50,842 bases of DNA. It comes from Acidobacteriaceae bacterium. Its GTDB lineage: Bacteria; Acidobacteriota; Terriglobia; Terriglobales; Acidobacteriaceae. Within the stretch, counting starts at the first letter, position 1. Each line of letters opens with the position of its first letter. The DNA is taken from NCBI GenBank assembly GCA_025360645.1, contig JANYBT010000157.1:1-50842 (forward strand), written 5' to 3'. Positions 40,759 through 48,528 of the stretch are shown piece after piece. Position numbers and translations under genes: made by a program. The notes under the pieces are model-generated. The model worked only from the letters and a program-made list of their open reading frames with translations, was not told the origin of the DNA and ran no database searches.

Positions 40759-43428
40759 ATGCCTGACGATCAGAACCCGCAACTGCCTTTGACGCCGCCG
40801 CCTCCCGATGGTGGCGATCGCGCCAATCCCCTTGGCGCTAACATTCAGCCGGTCAACATTGAAGAGGAGATGCGCCGGTCGTATCTTGACTATTCGATGT
40901 CGGTGATCATTGGCCGCGCGCTGCCTGACATTCGCGATGGGTTAAAGCCCGTCCACCGCCGCATTCTTTACACCATGCAGCAGATGGGCCTCGCCTACAA
41001 CAAGTCCACGCGCAAATGCGCCAGGATCGTCGGCGAAGTCATGGGCAAGTATCACCCGCACGGGAACCTCGCGGTTTACGATGCCTTGGTTCGGCTGGCG
41101 CAACCCTTCGCTATGCGCTACCCGTTGGTGGACGGACAAGGCAACTTCGGCTCCGTCGATGGAGATCCGCCGGCTGCTGATCGTTACACCGAAGCTCGCT
41201 TGACTCGCGTCGCGGGATCTTTGTTGGAGGACCTCGACAAGGAAACCGTTGACTTCCGTCCGAACTATGATGGCAACGAAATCGAGCCCGACGTCCTGCC
41301 CACGCGCATTCCGAACTTGCTGGTCAACGGCTCCAACGGAATCGCCGTCGGGATGGCGACCAACATTCCGCCGCACAATCTGACGGAAATCGTGGACGCC
41401 ACCATCCTGATGGTGAACAATCCCGGCACCTCGCTGCCGGAGATTCTGCGCATTGTAAAAGGGCCTGATTTTCCGACCGCCGGAATTATCCACGGCAAGA
41501 GCGGGATCCTCGCAGCTTACCTACATGGCCGTGGCCGCTTTATGATGCGCGCCAAGGCGGCGATTGAGACGTTCAACAAAGATCGCCAGGCTATCATCGT
41601 CACCGAAATTCCTTACCAGGTGAACAAGGCGCGGCTGATCGAGCGCATCGCGCAACTGGTGAACGACAAACAGATTGATGACATCTCCGACATTCGCGAC
41701 GAGAGCGACCGCGATGGGATGCGAATTGTAGTGGAATTGAAGCGTTCGGCCGAGCCCCAGATCGTGCTCAACCAACTGTTCAAGCACACCGCCATGCAGG
41801 AAAGTTTCAGCATGATCTTCCTCGCCGTGGTGAATGGCCAGCCGAAGGAAATGGGGCTGCTCGAGGCCATCCAACACTTCATCAATCATCGCGTGGATGT
41901 GGTACGGCGCCGCACCGCCTACCTGTTGCAGAGGGCGAAAGATCGCGAACACATTCTCGAAGGCTACCTGACCGCGTTAGATCATCTGGACAATGTGATC
42001 ACCATCATTCGCGCCAGCGCAAACCGCAGCGATGCCCGCGAAAACCTGATCGCCTACTTCGGCGGCAAGAAAATTGAAATCAACCTCACCGGCCGCATCG
42101 CAAAGCTCGATCCGGAAAAACCCTTCACCGGGATCCAGGCGGATGCAATTCTGGAGCTGCAACTCCATCGCCTCACCAAGCTTTCCATCGACGAGATCAC
42201 CAAAGAGTTGGGCCAGGCCCGCGAGAGCATCGCTGAATACGAATCCATTTTGGGTTCTGAAAAGAAGCTGCGCAGCGTCATCACCAAAGAGCTGGAAGAG
42301 GTGAAGAAGCAATTTGGGGACGCGCGCCGCACCGTCATTGAAGATGAAGCCGCGGAGATTACGCTGGAAGACCTGATCGCCGACGAACAAGTCGCGGTTA
42401 CGGTCAGCCATTCCGGCTACATGAAACGTACCCCCATTTCCACCTACCGCATGCAGCGTCGTGGTGGCGTGGGCCGGACCGGCATGAAGACGCGCGACGA
42501 AGATTTTGTCGAGCACTTGTTCGTCGCCTCGACCCACGCCTATATCCTGATCTTCACCAATATCGGGCGGGTTTATTGGCTCAAAGTTTACGAGATCCCC
42601 GACATCGCGGCCGCTGGCAAGGGCAAACACGTGGGAAATCTGGCCGGCCTGCAGCCAGGCGAGTCCGTCCGCACCATGTTGGCGATTCGCGACCTGGAAG
42701 AGGAAGGGAAGTACATCTTCTTCGCGACCCGCAACGGCACGGTCAAGAAGTGCGAGCTCAAGGATTTCTCACGTGTGCGCACGTCTGGGATCAACGGGAT
42801 TAACATCGCCGAGGGCAACGAACTCGTGGCGGTCAGCCTTACGGACGGACAGCAGGTCATCTTCATGGCGTCGCACGAGGGTCAGGCGATTCGGTTCGTG
42901 GAAGATGACGTGCGATCTATGGGCCGCGGTGCGGTGGGTGTGCGCGGCATGAGACTTAAAGCCGGTGATTACATAGTGGGCATGGCGACCACTCCGAAAC
43001 CTGGCGAAGGCAACGAGCCCAAAAAGAAAATTGCAGGGGCCCCCGAGGCGGGCCAAGACGTGCTGCCGGAGAAGGGGTCGCTGATTCTCTCGGTTACCGA
43101 AGGCGGTTACGGCAAGCGCACTCCTGCCGACAGCTATCGCCTCACCGGGCGCGGAATGCAGGGAGTCAAGAACCTGAAGACCACCGAGCGCAACGGCAAA
43201 GTCGTGGGGATCGCGCAAGTGTCAGAGAAGAGCGAGGTGATGCTAATCAGCCACTACGGCAAGATCATCCGCATGGACTCCAAGACCATCCGCGAGTGTG
43301 CGCGTTCCTCGCAGGGTGTTCGCCTGCTGAACCTCGAGCCGGGCGACCGGGTGGCCGCAGCAGTAGTCATTCCACTGGAAGAAGAAAACGGCAACGGCAA
43401 CGGAGGGAACGGCAGCTTGTTACAGTAG
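40759..43428 (+). CDS. gyrA: DNA gyrase subunit A
   Basis: GyrA is the DNA breakage-reunion subunit of gyrase. The 889 residues begin with a 30-residue Pro-rich extension. The winged-helix catalytic Tyr is Tyr143 in DRYTEARL. The quinolone-determining region reads [10 protein letters not shown] (residues 99-108), so E. coli Ser83 corresponds to Leu104 and Asp82 to Asn103, while Asp87 is kept as Asp108. A coiled-coil arm follows. The C-terminal propeller contains a GyrA box, QRRGGVG, needed for DNA wrapping and supercoiling, which marks it as gyrase rather than topoisomerase IV. The C-terminus is a short Asn/Gly tail. A strong terminator lies downstream. Confidence 0.97.
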
Positions 43429-43565: not shown

Positions 43566-43576
43566 CAACCCTATCC

Positions 43577-45640
43577 ATGGCCCTGGCGAATGGCACCAAA
43601 CTTGGTCCCTACGAGATCATGGCGGCTATTGGCGCGGGCGGCATGGGTGAAGTGTATCGTGCTCGGGACAGCCGCCTGGACCGCACCGTGGCCATCAAGA
43701 TCCTTCCTTCTCACCTCTCCGGCGACGCGCTTCGCCGCCAGCGCTTCGAACGCGAAGCCAAAGCCATCTCCAGCCTGAACTATCCCCACATCTGCACCCT
43801 GCACGACATCGGCCGGCAAGATGGCATTGATTTCATCGTCATGGAGCACTTGGAAGGCGAGACCCTGGCCGCACGCTTGCTTCGGGGTGCGCTGCCCGTG
43901 CCCGAAGTGCTGCAAGTTGGCTCTCAGATCGCCAGCGCCCTCGACCGTGCCCACCGCAGCGGTGTGACCCACCGGGACCTCACGCCCGGCAACATCATGC
44001 TGACCAAATCTGGAGCCAAGCTGCTGGACTTCGGGCTGGCCAAGGCGGTACCAGCTCTCGCTATCGACGCTACCCGCACCGAGGCGTCGCCGCTCGCCAC
44101 CCCAATCACGCGCAACAGTGGAGTGGTGGGTACAATTCCCTACATGTCGCCCGAGCAAGTGGACGGCAAAGAAGCCGATGCTCGCGGTGACATCTTCTCC
44201 CTGGGCTCCGTGCTCTATGAAATGGTCACCGGGAGCCGTGCCTTTCAGGGAGAAAGCCCGTTCAGCGTGGCCTCCGCCATCCTGGTGAAGGACCCGAAGC
44301 CAATCAGCACTCTGCAGCCCCTCACCCCTCCGGCGCTGGAACGCACGATCCAGCTTTGTCTGGCCAAGGATCCGGACGAACGCTGGCAATCGGCCGGTGA
44401 CCTTTGGAAGGAGCTGCGCTGGATCGCGGAAGGTGGTACGCAAACTGGTGTGCCCATCGCATCTGCCCTGCGGAGGGCGCTCCGTCTTCGCGCCGGCTGG
44501 ATCGTGGCGGCCGTGCTTGCCGCCGTTGCCATCGCCGCGCTCGTGCATGCAGGCCTCTCCCGGCCCGCTTCCGAGTCCCTTGTCTTCCATCAGGTAAACT
44601 TCCGGCGCGAGGCCGTCTTCCAGGCGGCGTTCGCCGAAAAGGACACCGTCGTTTCCAGCGCCGCCACCTCGGGCAACACGCCACAGATTTTCACGGTCCG
44701 CCCCGATTATCCCGAGCCCCAACCGCTTGGCCCGCCGGGCATGGAGTTGCTCGCCGTATCGTCCAAGGGGGAACTGGCCGTCCTTAAGGGCGCGCAATAC
44801 CTTTGGTACCGGATCTTCACCGGCACCCTGGCGCGCATGCCCCTCGACGGTGGCGCTCCGCGTGAGATCCAGGAGGGAGTTCGCCAAGCCGACTGGTCTC
44901 CCGACGGCTCGCAGCTTGCCATCATTCGCGAGGTCGCCGGCAAGGACCGCCTGGAATACCCCATCGGAAAAGTTCTCCGCGAGGTGAGTGGCTACATGAG
45001 CGATGTGCGCATCTCTCCCGGCGGAGATCGCATCGCCTTCTTCGAGCATCCTCGCAAGTGGGATGATCGGGGCTCGGTCAACCTCATGGATCTCGCCGGC
45101 AGCAACACCGTGCTCTCCGACGGCTATTGGAGCGAACGTGGCCTCGCCTGGTCGCCCAACGGTGGCGAGATCCTATTTTCCGCCAGCCCAGCCGGAGGGA
45201 GTTACACCGTCTACGCCATCACTCCGACCGGCCAGCGCCGTATCGCCTATCAAGCCCCCGGAGGGCTCTCCATCCAAGCGGTCGCGCGCGATGGACGATG
45301 GCTTACGAATCGTGTGGACTTTCGCTACGTCGCGATGGTTCATACCCCTGGCGCCGCCGCAGATCGCTATCTTTCCTGGCTGAATACTTCGCATGTGCGG
45401 GCGCTCTCCCAAGACGGCCAGACCCTGCTCTTTGCCGAGACCACCGTGGGCTCAAATTATGCAGTGTGCTTGCGCAATACCCGCGGCTCACCCGTCTTGC
45501 GGCTCGGCGACGGATGGCCTGCCGACCTCTCCGCCGACGGCAAGTGGGTGCTCGCGGTGGTTCAATCCCATCCCCCCCCAGTTGGTCGTTTATCCCGCGG
45601 GGGCGGGCGAAACTCGCCAGCTCCAACGCGGCGGCATTGA
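43577..45640 (+). CDS. Serine/threonine protein kinase with TolB/WD40-like propeller (5' part, frameshifted)
   Basis: The frame encodes 687 residues. First is a PknB-type kinase domain (about 11-280): glycine loop GAGGMGEVY, Lys41 in TVAIK, HRDLTPGN (132-139), DFG (151-153), and GTIPYMSPEQ. The Lys that normally follows HRD-L is Thr136. A membrane helix at about 296-318 follows (AGWIVAAVLAAVAIAALVHAG). Then comes an extracytoplasmic propeller with repeats such as ADWSPDGSQLAI, RISPGGDRIAFF and LAWSPNGGEILF. At the C8 run 45572-45579 the frame shifts and ends in nonsense; seven C residues would restore an 855-residue protein ending at 46145. Such membrane-spanning sensor kinases are common in acidobacteria. 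Confidence 0.85.
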   Translation: MALANGTKLGPYEIMAAIGAGGMGEVYRARDSRLDRTVAIKILPSHLSGDALRRQRFEREAKAISSLNYPHICTLHDIGRQDGIDFIVMEHLEGETLAARLLRGALPVPEVLQVGSQIASALDRAHRSGVTHRDLTPGNIMLTKSGAKLLDFGLAKAVPALAIDATRTEASPLATPITRNSGVVGTIPYMSPEQVDGKEADARGDIFSLGSVLYEMVTGSRAFQGESPFSVASAILVKDPKPISTLQPLTPPALERTIQLCLAKDPDERWQSAGDLWKELRWIAEGGTQTGVPIASALRRALRLRAGWIVAAVLAAVAIAALVHAGLSRPASESLVFHQVNFRREAVFQAAFAEKDTVVSSAATSGNTPQIFTVRPDYPEPQPLGPPGMELLAVSSKGELAVLKGAQYLWYRIFTGTLARMPLDGGAPREIQEGVRQADWSPDGSQLAIIREVAGKDRLEYPIGKVLREVSGYMSDVRISPGGDRIAFFEHPRKWDDRGSVNLMDLAGSNTVLSDGYWSERGLAWSPNGGEILFSASPAGGSYTVYAITPTGQRRIAYQAPGGLSIQAVARDGRWLTNRVDFRYVAMVHTPGAAADRYLSWLNTSHVRALSQDGQTLLFAETTVGSNYAVCLRNTRGSPVLRLGDGWPADLSADGKWVLAVVQSHPPPVGRLSRGGGRNSPAPTRRH

Positions 45641-46145
45641 AAACTACGTCACCGCACAGTGGTTCCGCGATGGCACCCGCGTGCTCATCGGCGGCAACCA
45701 GCCCGGCAAGAGCACCCGCTTCTACGTGCAGCCCATCGCCGGAGGGGATCCCCGGCCGGTGACTCCCGAAGGCACCAGCGCGGGTTGGATTTCCCCTGAT
45801 GGAAGCCTCGTGCTTGCGCTGGGGCCGGATGCCGGTTATTCCCTCTACCCGGTTGCGGAGGGAGAGCCGCAAGCAGTGAATGGGCTTACTCAGTCGGACG
45901 CAATTGCCCAGTGGAGCCCCGACGGCAAGTCTGTGCTGGTGTACCGTCGCGCCCAGATTCCCTGCCGCATCGAGCGCGTCGACCTGGCCACCGGACGCCG
46001 TACACTTTTCCAGGAGATTGCTCCCGCCGACCGCACCGGCCTCTTGTCAATCCGCGAGGTGTTCGTCAGCGATGATCTGCGGTCGTGGGCGTACACCGCG
46101 TATTACCAGGTATCCAGCCTGTTTGCGTCCGAGAGCAAGCCGTGA
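45572..46145 (+). pseudogene. 3' part of the kinase-propeller gene, in the shifted frame
   Basis: After the C8 tract the propeller continues in the +1-shifted frame: PQLVVYPAGAGETRQL, AQWFRDGTRVLIGG, AGWISPDGSLVLAL, AQWSPDGKSVLVYRR, then a stop. These are the same WSPDG-type blades as the upstream part, so this is the missing end of the kinase protein and not a separate gene. No ribosome-binding site or signal peptide suggests independent translation. Whether the break exists in the cell or only in the assembly cannot be decided from the sequence. Confidence 0.8.
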
Positions 46146-46230: not shown

Positions 46231-48528
46231 GTGAAACGTTTTGTCGCTGTCATTTTTCTGCTCTTTGCGTTGGGCCAGATGCAAGCCCAGCGCGAACCCT
46301 CCCTCGACCCCAAAACGCCCCCGAAAAAGCCTCTCACGGTTGAGGAGATTTATGCCCCTGGGGGGGTGACCGGACGTGAGCCAGAAACCACCAAGTGGAG
46401 TCCCGATAGTTCCCAGGCCACTTTCGTGCTGCGCGACGTCACCGGTGACCATGCCGACCTCTGGTCGCTGGATCCTGGCACCGGCGAAAAGAAGATCTTG
46501 GTCAGCGACGCCAAGCTCACCGCGCTGGCTCCGTCTTCTGACAAGATCAAGGACGAGCGCGAAAAGGAGCGCGTCAATCGGTACCACGTCGCGGCTTACG
46601 ACTGGGCCCCCGACTCTAAGCACATCCTGTTTAACTCGGGCGGCCAGCTCTGGTTCTACGATCTGGCGAGTGCCACAGCTCTGCAAATGACCTTCACGGA
46701 GAAGCCGGCACAAGACCCGAAGTTTTCTCCCGACGGAAGCAAGCTCGCTTACCTCCAATTGCACGACCTCCACGTGCGCAATGTCTCCGGAAAAGATGAC
46801 GACAAATCGCTCACCAAAGACGGCGGCGACAATCTGTTGAATGGCGAAGTCGATTGGCTCTACGCGGAAGAACTGAGTGTGCGGAGCAACTATTTCTGGT
46901 CACCCGACAGCCGCGAGATCGCATTCCTTCAGTCCAACGAGTCCCGCGTGCCCACCTACCCGATTGTCAATTGGCTCCCCACTCATCCCACCGTCGATCC
47001 AGAGAAATATCCCAAGGCCGGCGATCAGAATCCCGAGGTACGCCTCGGCGTGCTAAATGCTGAGAACGGCAAGCTGAAGTGGATCTCGCTCCTCATTGAT
47101 GCTGACACCTACATCCCGCGTTTTGGTTGGGTGCGCCCGGGCATTCTGTGGGCGCAGGTCCTGAACCGTAAGCAAGACCAGATGGACCTGTACTTCGTGG
47201 ATGCGCACTCCGGCAAGTCGCGGAAAGTTCTCACTGAATCCAGTCCGGATGCGTGGGTCAATGTCAATGACGACTTCCGCATTCTCAAGTCCGGGGATCG
47301 TTTCTTGTGGTCGAGTTGGCGCGACGGCAATACCCACCTCTACCTTTACAGCTTCGACAAGGTCAATCCCCTTAAGGGCGAAGCCAAACTGGAACGCCAG
47401 ATCACTCATGGCGATTTCGAAGTCCTCGGCGTGGAGGTCGTGGATGAGGAGATGGGCGTCGTTTACTTCGCGTCCAACCTCAGTGACTATCGCCAGGAAC
47501 AGATCGGCGCTGCCAAGCTGGATGGCTCCAAGCTCCAGGATTGGGAGGTCAATCGCCTCACGCTCGACATCGGCTCGCACCACGGGATTTTCAGCCCCAA
47601 CGCCAAATACTACATAGACAGTTTCTCGTCGGTGAAGGCGCCGTCACGCATGTCCGTTTGCGGCATCAAGTTCCTGCTGGGTGCGCCTGCCTCCGACAGT
47701 ATCGACCTTCCCTGCCATGTGTTTCATCGTCCCAAAGATCTTACCGACTATAACCCCAATCAGCCGCTCTTTCTTACCTTTCGGGCTGACGATGATACTA
47801 TTCTGTTCGGCCAGTTGCTAATGCCTCCCGATATGGCCAAGGACGCCACGGCCAAGATCCCGCTTATCGTCAATGTCTATGGTGGCCCTGCCGCGCAGTT
47901 AGTGCAAAATACTTGGGGCGGGTCCGGCCAGTTGTTTAATCAGATCCTGATGCGGCGAGGCTTCGCCGTCTTCTCGGTCGACAATCGAGGTACCCCTAAC
48001 CGTGGGCGCAAATTCTCGGCTGCCATCCGCGGTCAGTTTGGCGGCATCGAACTGAAAGACCAATTGCGCGCCCTTGATACCTTACTCAAGAGCTATCCGC
48101 AGCTCGATCCGAAACGGATTGGCATCTGGGGATGGTCCAACGGCGCTTCCATGACCCTTTATGCCATGACCCACTCGGACCGGTTCAAGGCCGGGATCGC
48201 CGTCGCCCCCGTCACGGACTGGCACGACTACGATTCGGCCTACACCGAGCGCTATATGGGTCTCCCTAAAGACAACGCCAAGGGCTACGACCTCTCTATG
48301 CCTCACGCCGCCGCTGACCTGCGCGGTTCGCTGTTTCTGGTGCACGGTACCAGCGACGATAACGTTCACATGCAGAACAGCATTCAGATGATCGACGCTC
48401 TGGTGAAAGCCGGCAAGCCGTTTCGCCTCATGATCTATCCCAACAAGACGCATGGCATTTCCGGGCAGGAGGCGCGCACCCACTTGTTTAACATGATGCT
48501 GGACCACTGGGAGAAAGAGCTGAAGTAA
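46231..48528 (+). CDS. Dipeptidyl-peptidase IV-like S9 family serine peptidase
   Basis: This 765-residue exported peptidase starts at a GTG with GGAG 8 bases upstream, followed by the signal peptide MKRFVAVIFLLFALGQMQAQ. The N-terminal two thirds form a beta-propeller; within it DWLYAEELSVRSNYFWSPD carries the double Glu that binds the substrate amino terminus in DPP IV. The C-terminal alpha/beta-hydrolase domain has the catalytic triad Ser636 (GWSNGAS), Asp709 (HGTSDDNVH) and His741 (KTHGISG), with spacing close to human DPP IV (630/708/740). It probably removes X-Pro or X-Ala dipeptides in the periplasm. It follows the kinase gene by 85 bases. Confidence 0.93.
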   Translation: MKRFVAVIFLLFALGQMQAQREPSLDPKTPPKKPLTVEEIYAPGGVTGREPETTKWSPDSSQATFVLRDVTGDHADLWSLDPGTGEKKILVSDAKLTALAPSSDKIKDEREKERVNRYHVAAYDWAPDSKHILFNSGGQLWFYDLASATALQMTFTEKPAQDPKFSPDGSKLAYLQLHDLHVRNVSGKDDDKSLTKDGGDNLLNGEVDWLYAEELSVRSNYFWSPDSREIAFLQSNESRVPTYPIVNWLPTHPTVDPEKYPKAGDQNPEVRLGVLNAENGKLKWISLLIDADTYIPRFGWVRPGILWAQVLNRKQDQMDLYFVDAHSGKSRKVLTESSPDAWVNVNDDFRILKSGDRFLWSSWRDGNTHLYLYSFDKVNPLKGEAKLERQITHGDFEVLGVEVVDEEMGVVYFASNLSDYRQEQIGAAKLDGSKLQDWEVNRLTLDIGSHHGIFSPNAKYYIDSFSSVKAPSRMSVCGIKFLLGAPASDSIDLPCHVFHRPKDLTDYNPNQPLFLTFRADDDTILFGQLLMPPDMAKDATAKIPLIVNVYGGPAAQLVQNTWGGSGQLFNQILMRRGFAVFSVDNRGTPNRGRKFSAAIRGQFGGIELKDQLRALDTLLKSYPQLDPKRIGIWGWSNGASMTLYAMTHSDRFKAGIAVAPVTDWHDYDSAYTERYMGLPKDNAKGYDLSMPHAAADLRGSLFLVHGTSDDNVHMQNSIQMIDALVKAGKPFRLMIYPNKTHGISGQEARTHLFNMMLDHWEKELK

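Follow-up and report, generated by a model that had tools for sequence, protein, structure and literature searches.

A kinase-propeller gene split at a C8 tract in an Acidobacteriaceae draft genome, probably by recent homopolymer slippage

The closest described relatives of the gene analysed here are the acidobacterial Ser/Thr kinases with a C-terminal PD40/WD40-like propeller (PknB-type), with which it shares a Pkinase domain, a hydrophobic segment and a mostly-beta C-terminal half. In contrast to these proteins, its reading frame is broken at a run of eight C and its catalytic-loop Lys is replaced by Thr. The break, as assembled, resembles the single-base homopolymer pseudogenes of bacteria in its one gained base, truncated product and otherwise intact gene; nothing notable sets the locus apart from that class. 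An intragenic run of eight C is likewise shared with the G/C-tract contingency loci of Campylobacter and Neisseria. Campylobacter G/C tracts mediate switching, and the cited passage of PMC8355987 describes G8 as biased to insertion; a C5/C6 tract in Neisseria varies between strains, according to the passage cited from PMC5084427. Unlike these loci, the present tract is not conserved among relatives, and such tracts are not enriched in the window.

The window, a whole contig of 50,842 nucleotides (C107), belongs to a draft assembly of 3.82 Mb in 158 contigs with 99.89% completeness. Between gyrA (40759-43428, identified from its translation) and an S9 peptidase gene (46231-48528) sits the kinase-propeller gene, whose features are collected in the table below. 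The open reading frame 43577-45640 opens with a Ser/Thr kinase domain (residues 12-271), followed by a hydrophobic stretch at about residues 307-324, called a putative membrane helix by eye, and by the proximal two thirds of the putative propeller. Directly after an in-frame CAT (45569-45571) comes the C8 tract, past which the frame reads three Pro and 19 more residues before a TGA at 45638-45640. The neighbouring frame stays open across the tract up to 46145, and the two pieces joined give 665 + 190 = 855 codons with no stop. One continuous orthologous protein (L148) is matched by residues 1-664 of the first piece at 77% identity and by residues 1-187 of the second at 74%, and the two pieces meet in the orthologue proteins within one codon; the frame change is therefore not a chance overlap. 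The first-pass annotation had read the locus as one gene split by one extra C, with seven C giving a continuous protein of 855 residues. Both statements hold: the two frames were verified, the joined frame is stop-free and the orthologues are continuous. Opposite the kinase gene runs an antisense open frame of 492 aa (43571-45049, minus strand); long antisense frames are common in the window.

Table. Coordinates of the split gene, its break and the 3'-only pieces found in relatives
Feature	Position	Strand	Basis or remark
5' piece of the kinase-propeller gene	43577..45571	+	Pkinase profile; 75-77% identity to five close whole orthologues
Codon 136, Thr replacing the catalytic-loop Lys (HRDLT vs HRDLK)	43982..43984	+	Alignment of kinase domains
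C8 tract, point of frame change	45572..45579	+	Homologous codons in relatives with C run of at most 5
Shifted-frame 3' piece (190 codons plus stop), distal third of the putative propeller	45573..46145	+	65-74% identity to C-termini of five close whole orthologues
Out-of-frame tail of the 687-aa truncated product, ending in TGA	45580..45640	+	Sequence
3'-only piece	L149:4938-5795		Relative G333
3'-only piece	L153:7512-8078		Relative G186
3'-only piece	L155:7285-7617		Relative G128

Relatives were sought by a DNA search with a 765-base query (45381-46145) against 398 genomes sampled evenly across the family. Matches occurred in 31 genomes, the source genome included; nine others were strong (E < 1e-18), and the remainder were weak or short. 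Six of these nine (G409, G232, G397, G365, G294 and G059) carry the whole gene as a single open frame, 49-77% identical to the 5' piece. A scan of named genomes returned as its top two loci L039, from a Candidatus Sulfotelmatobacter MAG, and L040, from the Acidobacteriaceae MAG bog_209; these correspond record for record to G409 and G294. The scan did provide a seventh whole orthologue, L041. This sequence, 53% identical over the 5' piece, lies in a MAG titled Candidatus Eisenbacteria, a placement that could reflect either inter-phylum transfer or a misbinned contig. Eight window neighbours, including gyrB and gyrA, were looked for in the nine stretches fetched around the orthologues; none was matched, nor was any in a rerun with a relaxed cut-off that included a positive control.

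At the tract site, all seven whole orthologues encode Pro-Pro, by CCG followed by CCC, CCT, CCG or CCA and once by CCC CCA. The longest C run there is five in G232, four in G409 and two to three in the other whole orthologues, while the 3' fragments that cover the site reach four (G186) and two (G333). L084 and L012, two more distant sequences that are complete or almost complete (46-48% identical; omitted from the alignments), read Pro-Asp and Pro-Glu, with no long C run. Since the run does not exceed five in any of the seven whole orthologues, the tract is not conserved, and a long C run is, on the sequences compared, private to the window lineage.

Three of the nine strong-match relatives (G333, G186 and G128) show only an open 3' piece, in each case contig-internal. 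In the 10.7-12 kb retrieved around these pieces, the kinase part of the gene was not found. The stretch from G186 does contain two different kinase genes (40-44% identical), and similarity in G186 starts at the codons homologous to the C run of the window. With a query taken from the 3' part alone, the search favours 3'-only pieces and would miss 5'-only ones. Repeated gene loss could have left the pieces behind as remnants; alternatively they could be propeller fragments that were retained, or products of assembly joins or misassembly in draft genomes.

A consensus or assembly error would mean that the organism carries C7 and an intact kinase-propeller of 855 residues. Such an error would suit a distal frame that is pristine over 190 codons (no stop, dN/dS 0.06) and that a run of seven C would restore, in a draft genome that is the only one of its genus in the comparison. 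The homopolymers of the assembly bear on this. The 3.8 Mb hold 31 distinct C/G runs of at least 8 (25 of exactly 8 and six longer; 44 overlapping matches grouped by hand and counted without a shuffle control), and a C8 tract is in itself no rarity. Coding potential was scored on both sides of 115 homopolymers of at least 6, taken from the window and from 30 stretches around the other C/G runs of at least 8, a small and non-random sample. Same-strand coding on both sides made 56 of them informative: 53 lie in one frame, including 11 of the 25 C/G runs of exactly 8, and three were flagged as frame changes. Two of the flagged cases were dismissed, one being a continuous gene and thus a false alarm of the score, the other a gene junction, and the window C8 is the sole confirmed frame break among the informative runs. 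With 53 in-frame runs against one confirmed break, a general homopolymer problem was rejected for the stretches scored. The lack of any other confirmed homopolymer frame break in these stretches makes an assembly error somewhat less likely, and we regard it as a rather unlikely explanation that still deserves serious weight. Two further runs were noted in passing. A G10 run (L160), uninformative by score, appears on visual reading to lie within an uninterrupted gene; the longest among the C/G runs listed, a G14 run (L185:2001-2014; contig C136:7195-7208), does not lie inside one coding frame by a cruder score and has a long open frame on one side.

The same counts bear on a phase-variable switch, which the first-pass annotation had offered as one reading and in which the length of the tract would toggle between a full-length and a truncated kinase sensor. 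Both frames are intact in the window gene, and known G/C tracts are of such length in Campylobacter or shorter in Neisseria; on the C5/C6 variation described in the passage cited from PMC5084427, a short tract would not by itself exclude switching. Against this, the C run at the site is at most five in the seven whole orthologues and at most four in the two fragments covering it. Neither are such tracts enriched in the window, where C8/G8 occurs once against 2.5 expected from dinucleotide shuffles and C7 has four matches against 10.5 expected. Among the other 30 C/G runs of at least 8 in the assembly, 11 lie in one frame and none is a confirmed frame break, 19 being uninformative by score, and the break in the kinase gene falls at 78% of its length. 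A switch is thus unsupported, and we consider it improbable.

In protein kinases the residues of the VAIK, HRD, HRDLK and DFG motifs are catalytic, and the HRDLK Lys has a role in catalysis. The window protein keeps the VAIK Lys, the HRD Asp and the DFG Asp, with Thr136 in place of the HRDLK Lys, and scores 136.5 bits against the Pfam Pkinase profile (cut-off 31.7), where five close orthologues score 150.7-162.0. Position 136 is Lys in 93 of 94 other aligned kinase domains, a set that omits domains shorter than 270 residues, sequence from the same genome and the close orthologues; the exception, L097, reads HRDLN. Two more near-invariant sites are changed in the window, H69Y (His in 93 of the 94) and G181S (Gly in 88). 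The window differs at 14 columns where all seven orthologues agree, six of them in the kinase, with K136T, H69Y and G181S included in the six. The same count against all others is six for G232, five for G294, three each for G397 and G365 and none for G409, the last three taxa sitting on shorter branches. The private kinase changes of the window were on average no more severe than those of G232 and G294 (Mann-Whitney p = 0.43). Overall, the substitutions are suggestive of a kinase activity that is reduced or lost, and HRDLT may impair the kinase independently of the frameshift; a wider decay of the domain beyond the frameshift is only suggested. Given the replacement of the HRDLK Lys by Thr136, the protein is best described as a Ser/Thr kinase by descent whose catalysis is doubtful. 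Taken with the single confirmed break among the 56 informative homopolymers, the lost Lys makes the C8 lean towards being real, and a genuine loss-of-function allele appears more likely than a consensus error.

Selection along the gene was estimated with a dN/dS branch model for six of the eight aligned taxa, namely the window and five close orthologues, on a fixed star-like topology, since the base of the tree does not resolve (supports 44-55). G059 and L041 were excluded from these fits as too distant, the fragments of G333, G186 and G128 were compared pairwise only, and removal of columns gapped in any of the six taxa retained 853 of the 855 window codons. Over these codons the window branch has an omega of 0.065 versus 0.073 elsewhere (2dlnL 0.37), revealing no relaxed selection on the branch. 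By region, window-branch and background values were 0.059 versus 0.080 in the kinase, 0.057 versus 0.041 in the proximal propeller and 0.063 versus 0.078 in the distal part past the tract. In that distal part omega = 1 was rejected (2dlnL 54.2), the 3.84 rule placing the window-branch value between just below 0.03 and about 0.12.

These values bear on the possibility of an old, long non-functional pseudogene. The lost catalytic-loop Lys and the lowered kinase profile score would fit such a history, but no further stop or frameshift occurs in 855 codons, and the rejection of neutrality past the tract excludes, unless the branch model is seriously mistaken, an old pseudogene, to which we give next to no chance. 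The 'true pseudogene' of the first-pass annotation accordingly fails as an old one, with a distal omega of 0.063 and no decay, and survives only as a very recent one. From the upper bound on omega, any neutral phase would occupy at most roughly 5% of the window branch, a coarse timing given nearly saturated synonymous change (t about 3-6 for that branch). Private amino acid changes in kinase, proximal and distal parts number 18, 11 and 18 in the window, 10, 13 and 6 in G232, and 9, 13 and 13 in G294, so that window amino acids evolve somewhat faster in the kinase and past the tract; since this excess is seen before as well as after the tract, it gives no date for the frameshift. The frameshift is best read as a single slippage event, recent when set against the divergence from the closest relatives compared.

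A conserved distal frame could also reflect leaky or programmed recoding, in which a +1 slip of the ribosome on CCC-C, or slippage during transcription, yields some full-length protein. Precedents exist on both counts. The cited portion of PMC4519876 describes native E. coli tRNA-Pro(UGG) as able to shift to the +1 and +2 frames on CCC-CG, and the cited portion of PMC3017870 reports transcriptional slippage as demonstrated for some homopolymer-frameshifted genes of Blochmannia and Buchnera and proposed for eight genes of B. vafer. As described in the same sources, however, the +2 shift is dominant for tRNA-Pro(UGG), m1G37 suppressing +1 shifts (PMC4519876), and the Blochmannia precedents are poly-A/T (PMC3017870). 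The whole orthologues need no shift, and a conserved slippery or programmed frameshift site was rejected, as the site is not conserved among them. Distal conservation is, moreover, accounted for by a recent origin without any rescue. We therefore hold recoding to be quite improbable. Still more speculative, and in our estimation very improbable, is a C8 allele with two products: a predominant truncated membrane kinase whose propeller is open and blind to its ligand, and small amounts of full-length protein made by slippage on the C run. If true, an acidobacterial population would thereby have two states of the sensor.

The consequence for the protein was considered on an AlphaFold model of an intact orthologue (P0005), built on a seven-sequence alignment with a mean pLDDT of 75.5 and a pTM of 0.52. 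Residues 348-867 of the model form 42 strands and little else, and the position homologous to the break separates strand 673-678 from strand 684-689, so that 14 of the 42 strands would be lost. Of the six whole orthologues scanned, three (P0005, P0009 and P0011) attain the PD40 cut-off of 20.9 bits; the window piece just equals that cut-off, and no individual stretch passes alone. The top Foldseek matches of the P0005 model are the kinase domains of M. tuberculosis PknB and PknA, and one propeller appears among the 50 matches listed (2ymu_A, rank 46, query TM 0.25). The propeller itself is thus poorly matched, and the case for that predicted fold comes from the strand pattern together with borderline PD40 matches. 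A propeller truncated at this point would hardly be able to close; the product would still have its kinase and membrane segment.

The explanation we prefer, with moderate confidence, is a recent homopolymer slippage. It most likely left the sampled population with a genuine loss-of-function allele, and the gene itself is probably dispensable. In its favour stand the seven whole orthologues with Pro-Pro at the site, the dN/dS values of the window branch, the single confirmed homopolymer break, the changed near-invariant kinase sites with the lower Pkinase score, and the three of nine strong-match relatives with a 3' piece only. The ancestral gene would have encoded a Ser/Thr kinase, a membrane segment and a C-terminal beta-propeller, a type common in Acidobacteriota. 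In the window lineage the Pro-Pro codons would have become CCC CCC before CAG, producing an uninterrupted C7, to which replication slippage would then have added one C. Ribosomes would be out of frame past the resulting C8 and stop about 20 codons on, releasing a product without the last third of its propeller. Weighing against this slippage reading are the chance, given above, of an isolated consensus error, a kinase dN/dS that is not raised on the window branch, private kinase changes of ordinary severity, the bias of the search towards 3'-only pieces and the coarse timing.

Little depends on the finding, made in a kinase-propeller family where some relatives show a 3' remnant only. If the slippage reading is right, the locus would offer a clean example of a synonymous change that builds a homopolymer which then breaks the gene. 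Should the population prove to be a true C7/C8 mixture, the tract would represent standing variation in an environmental signalling gene.
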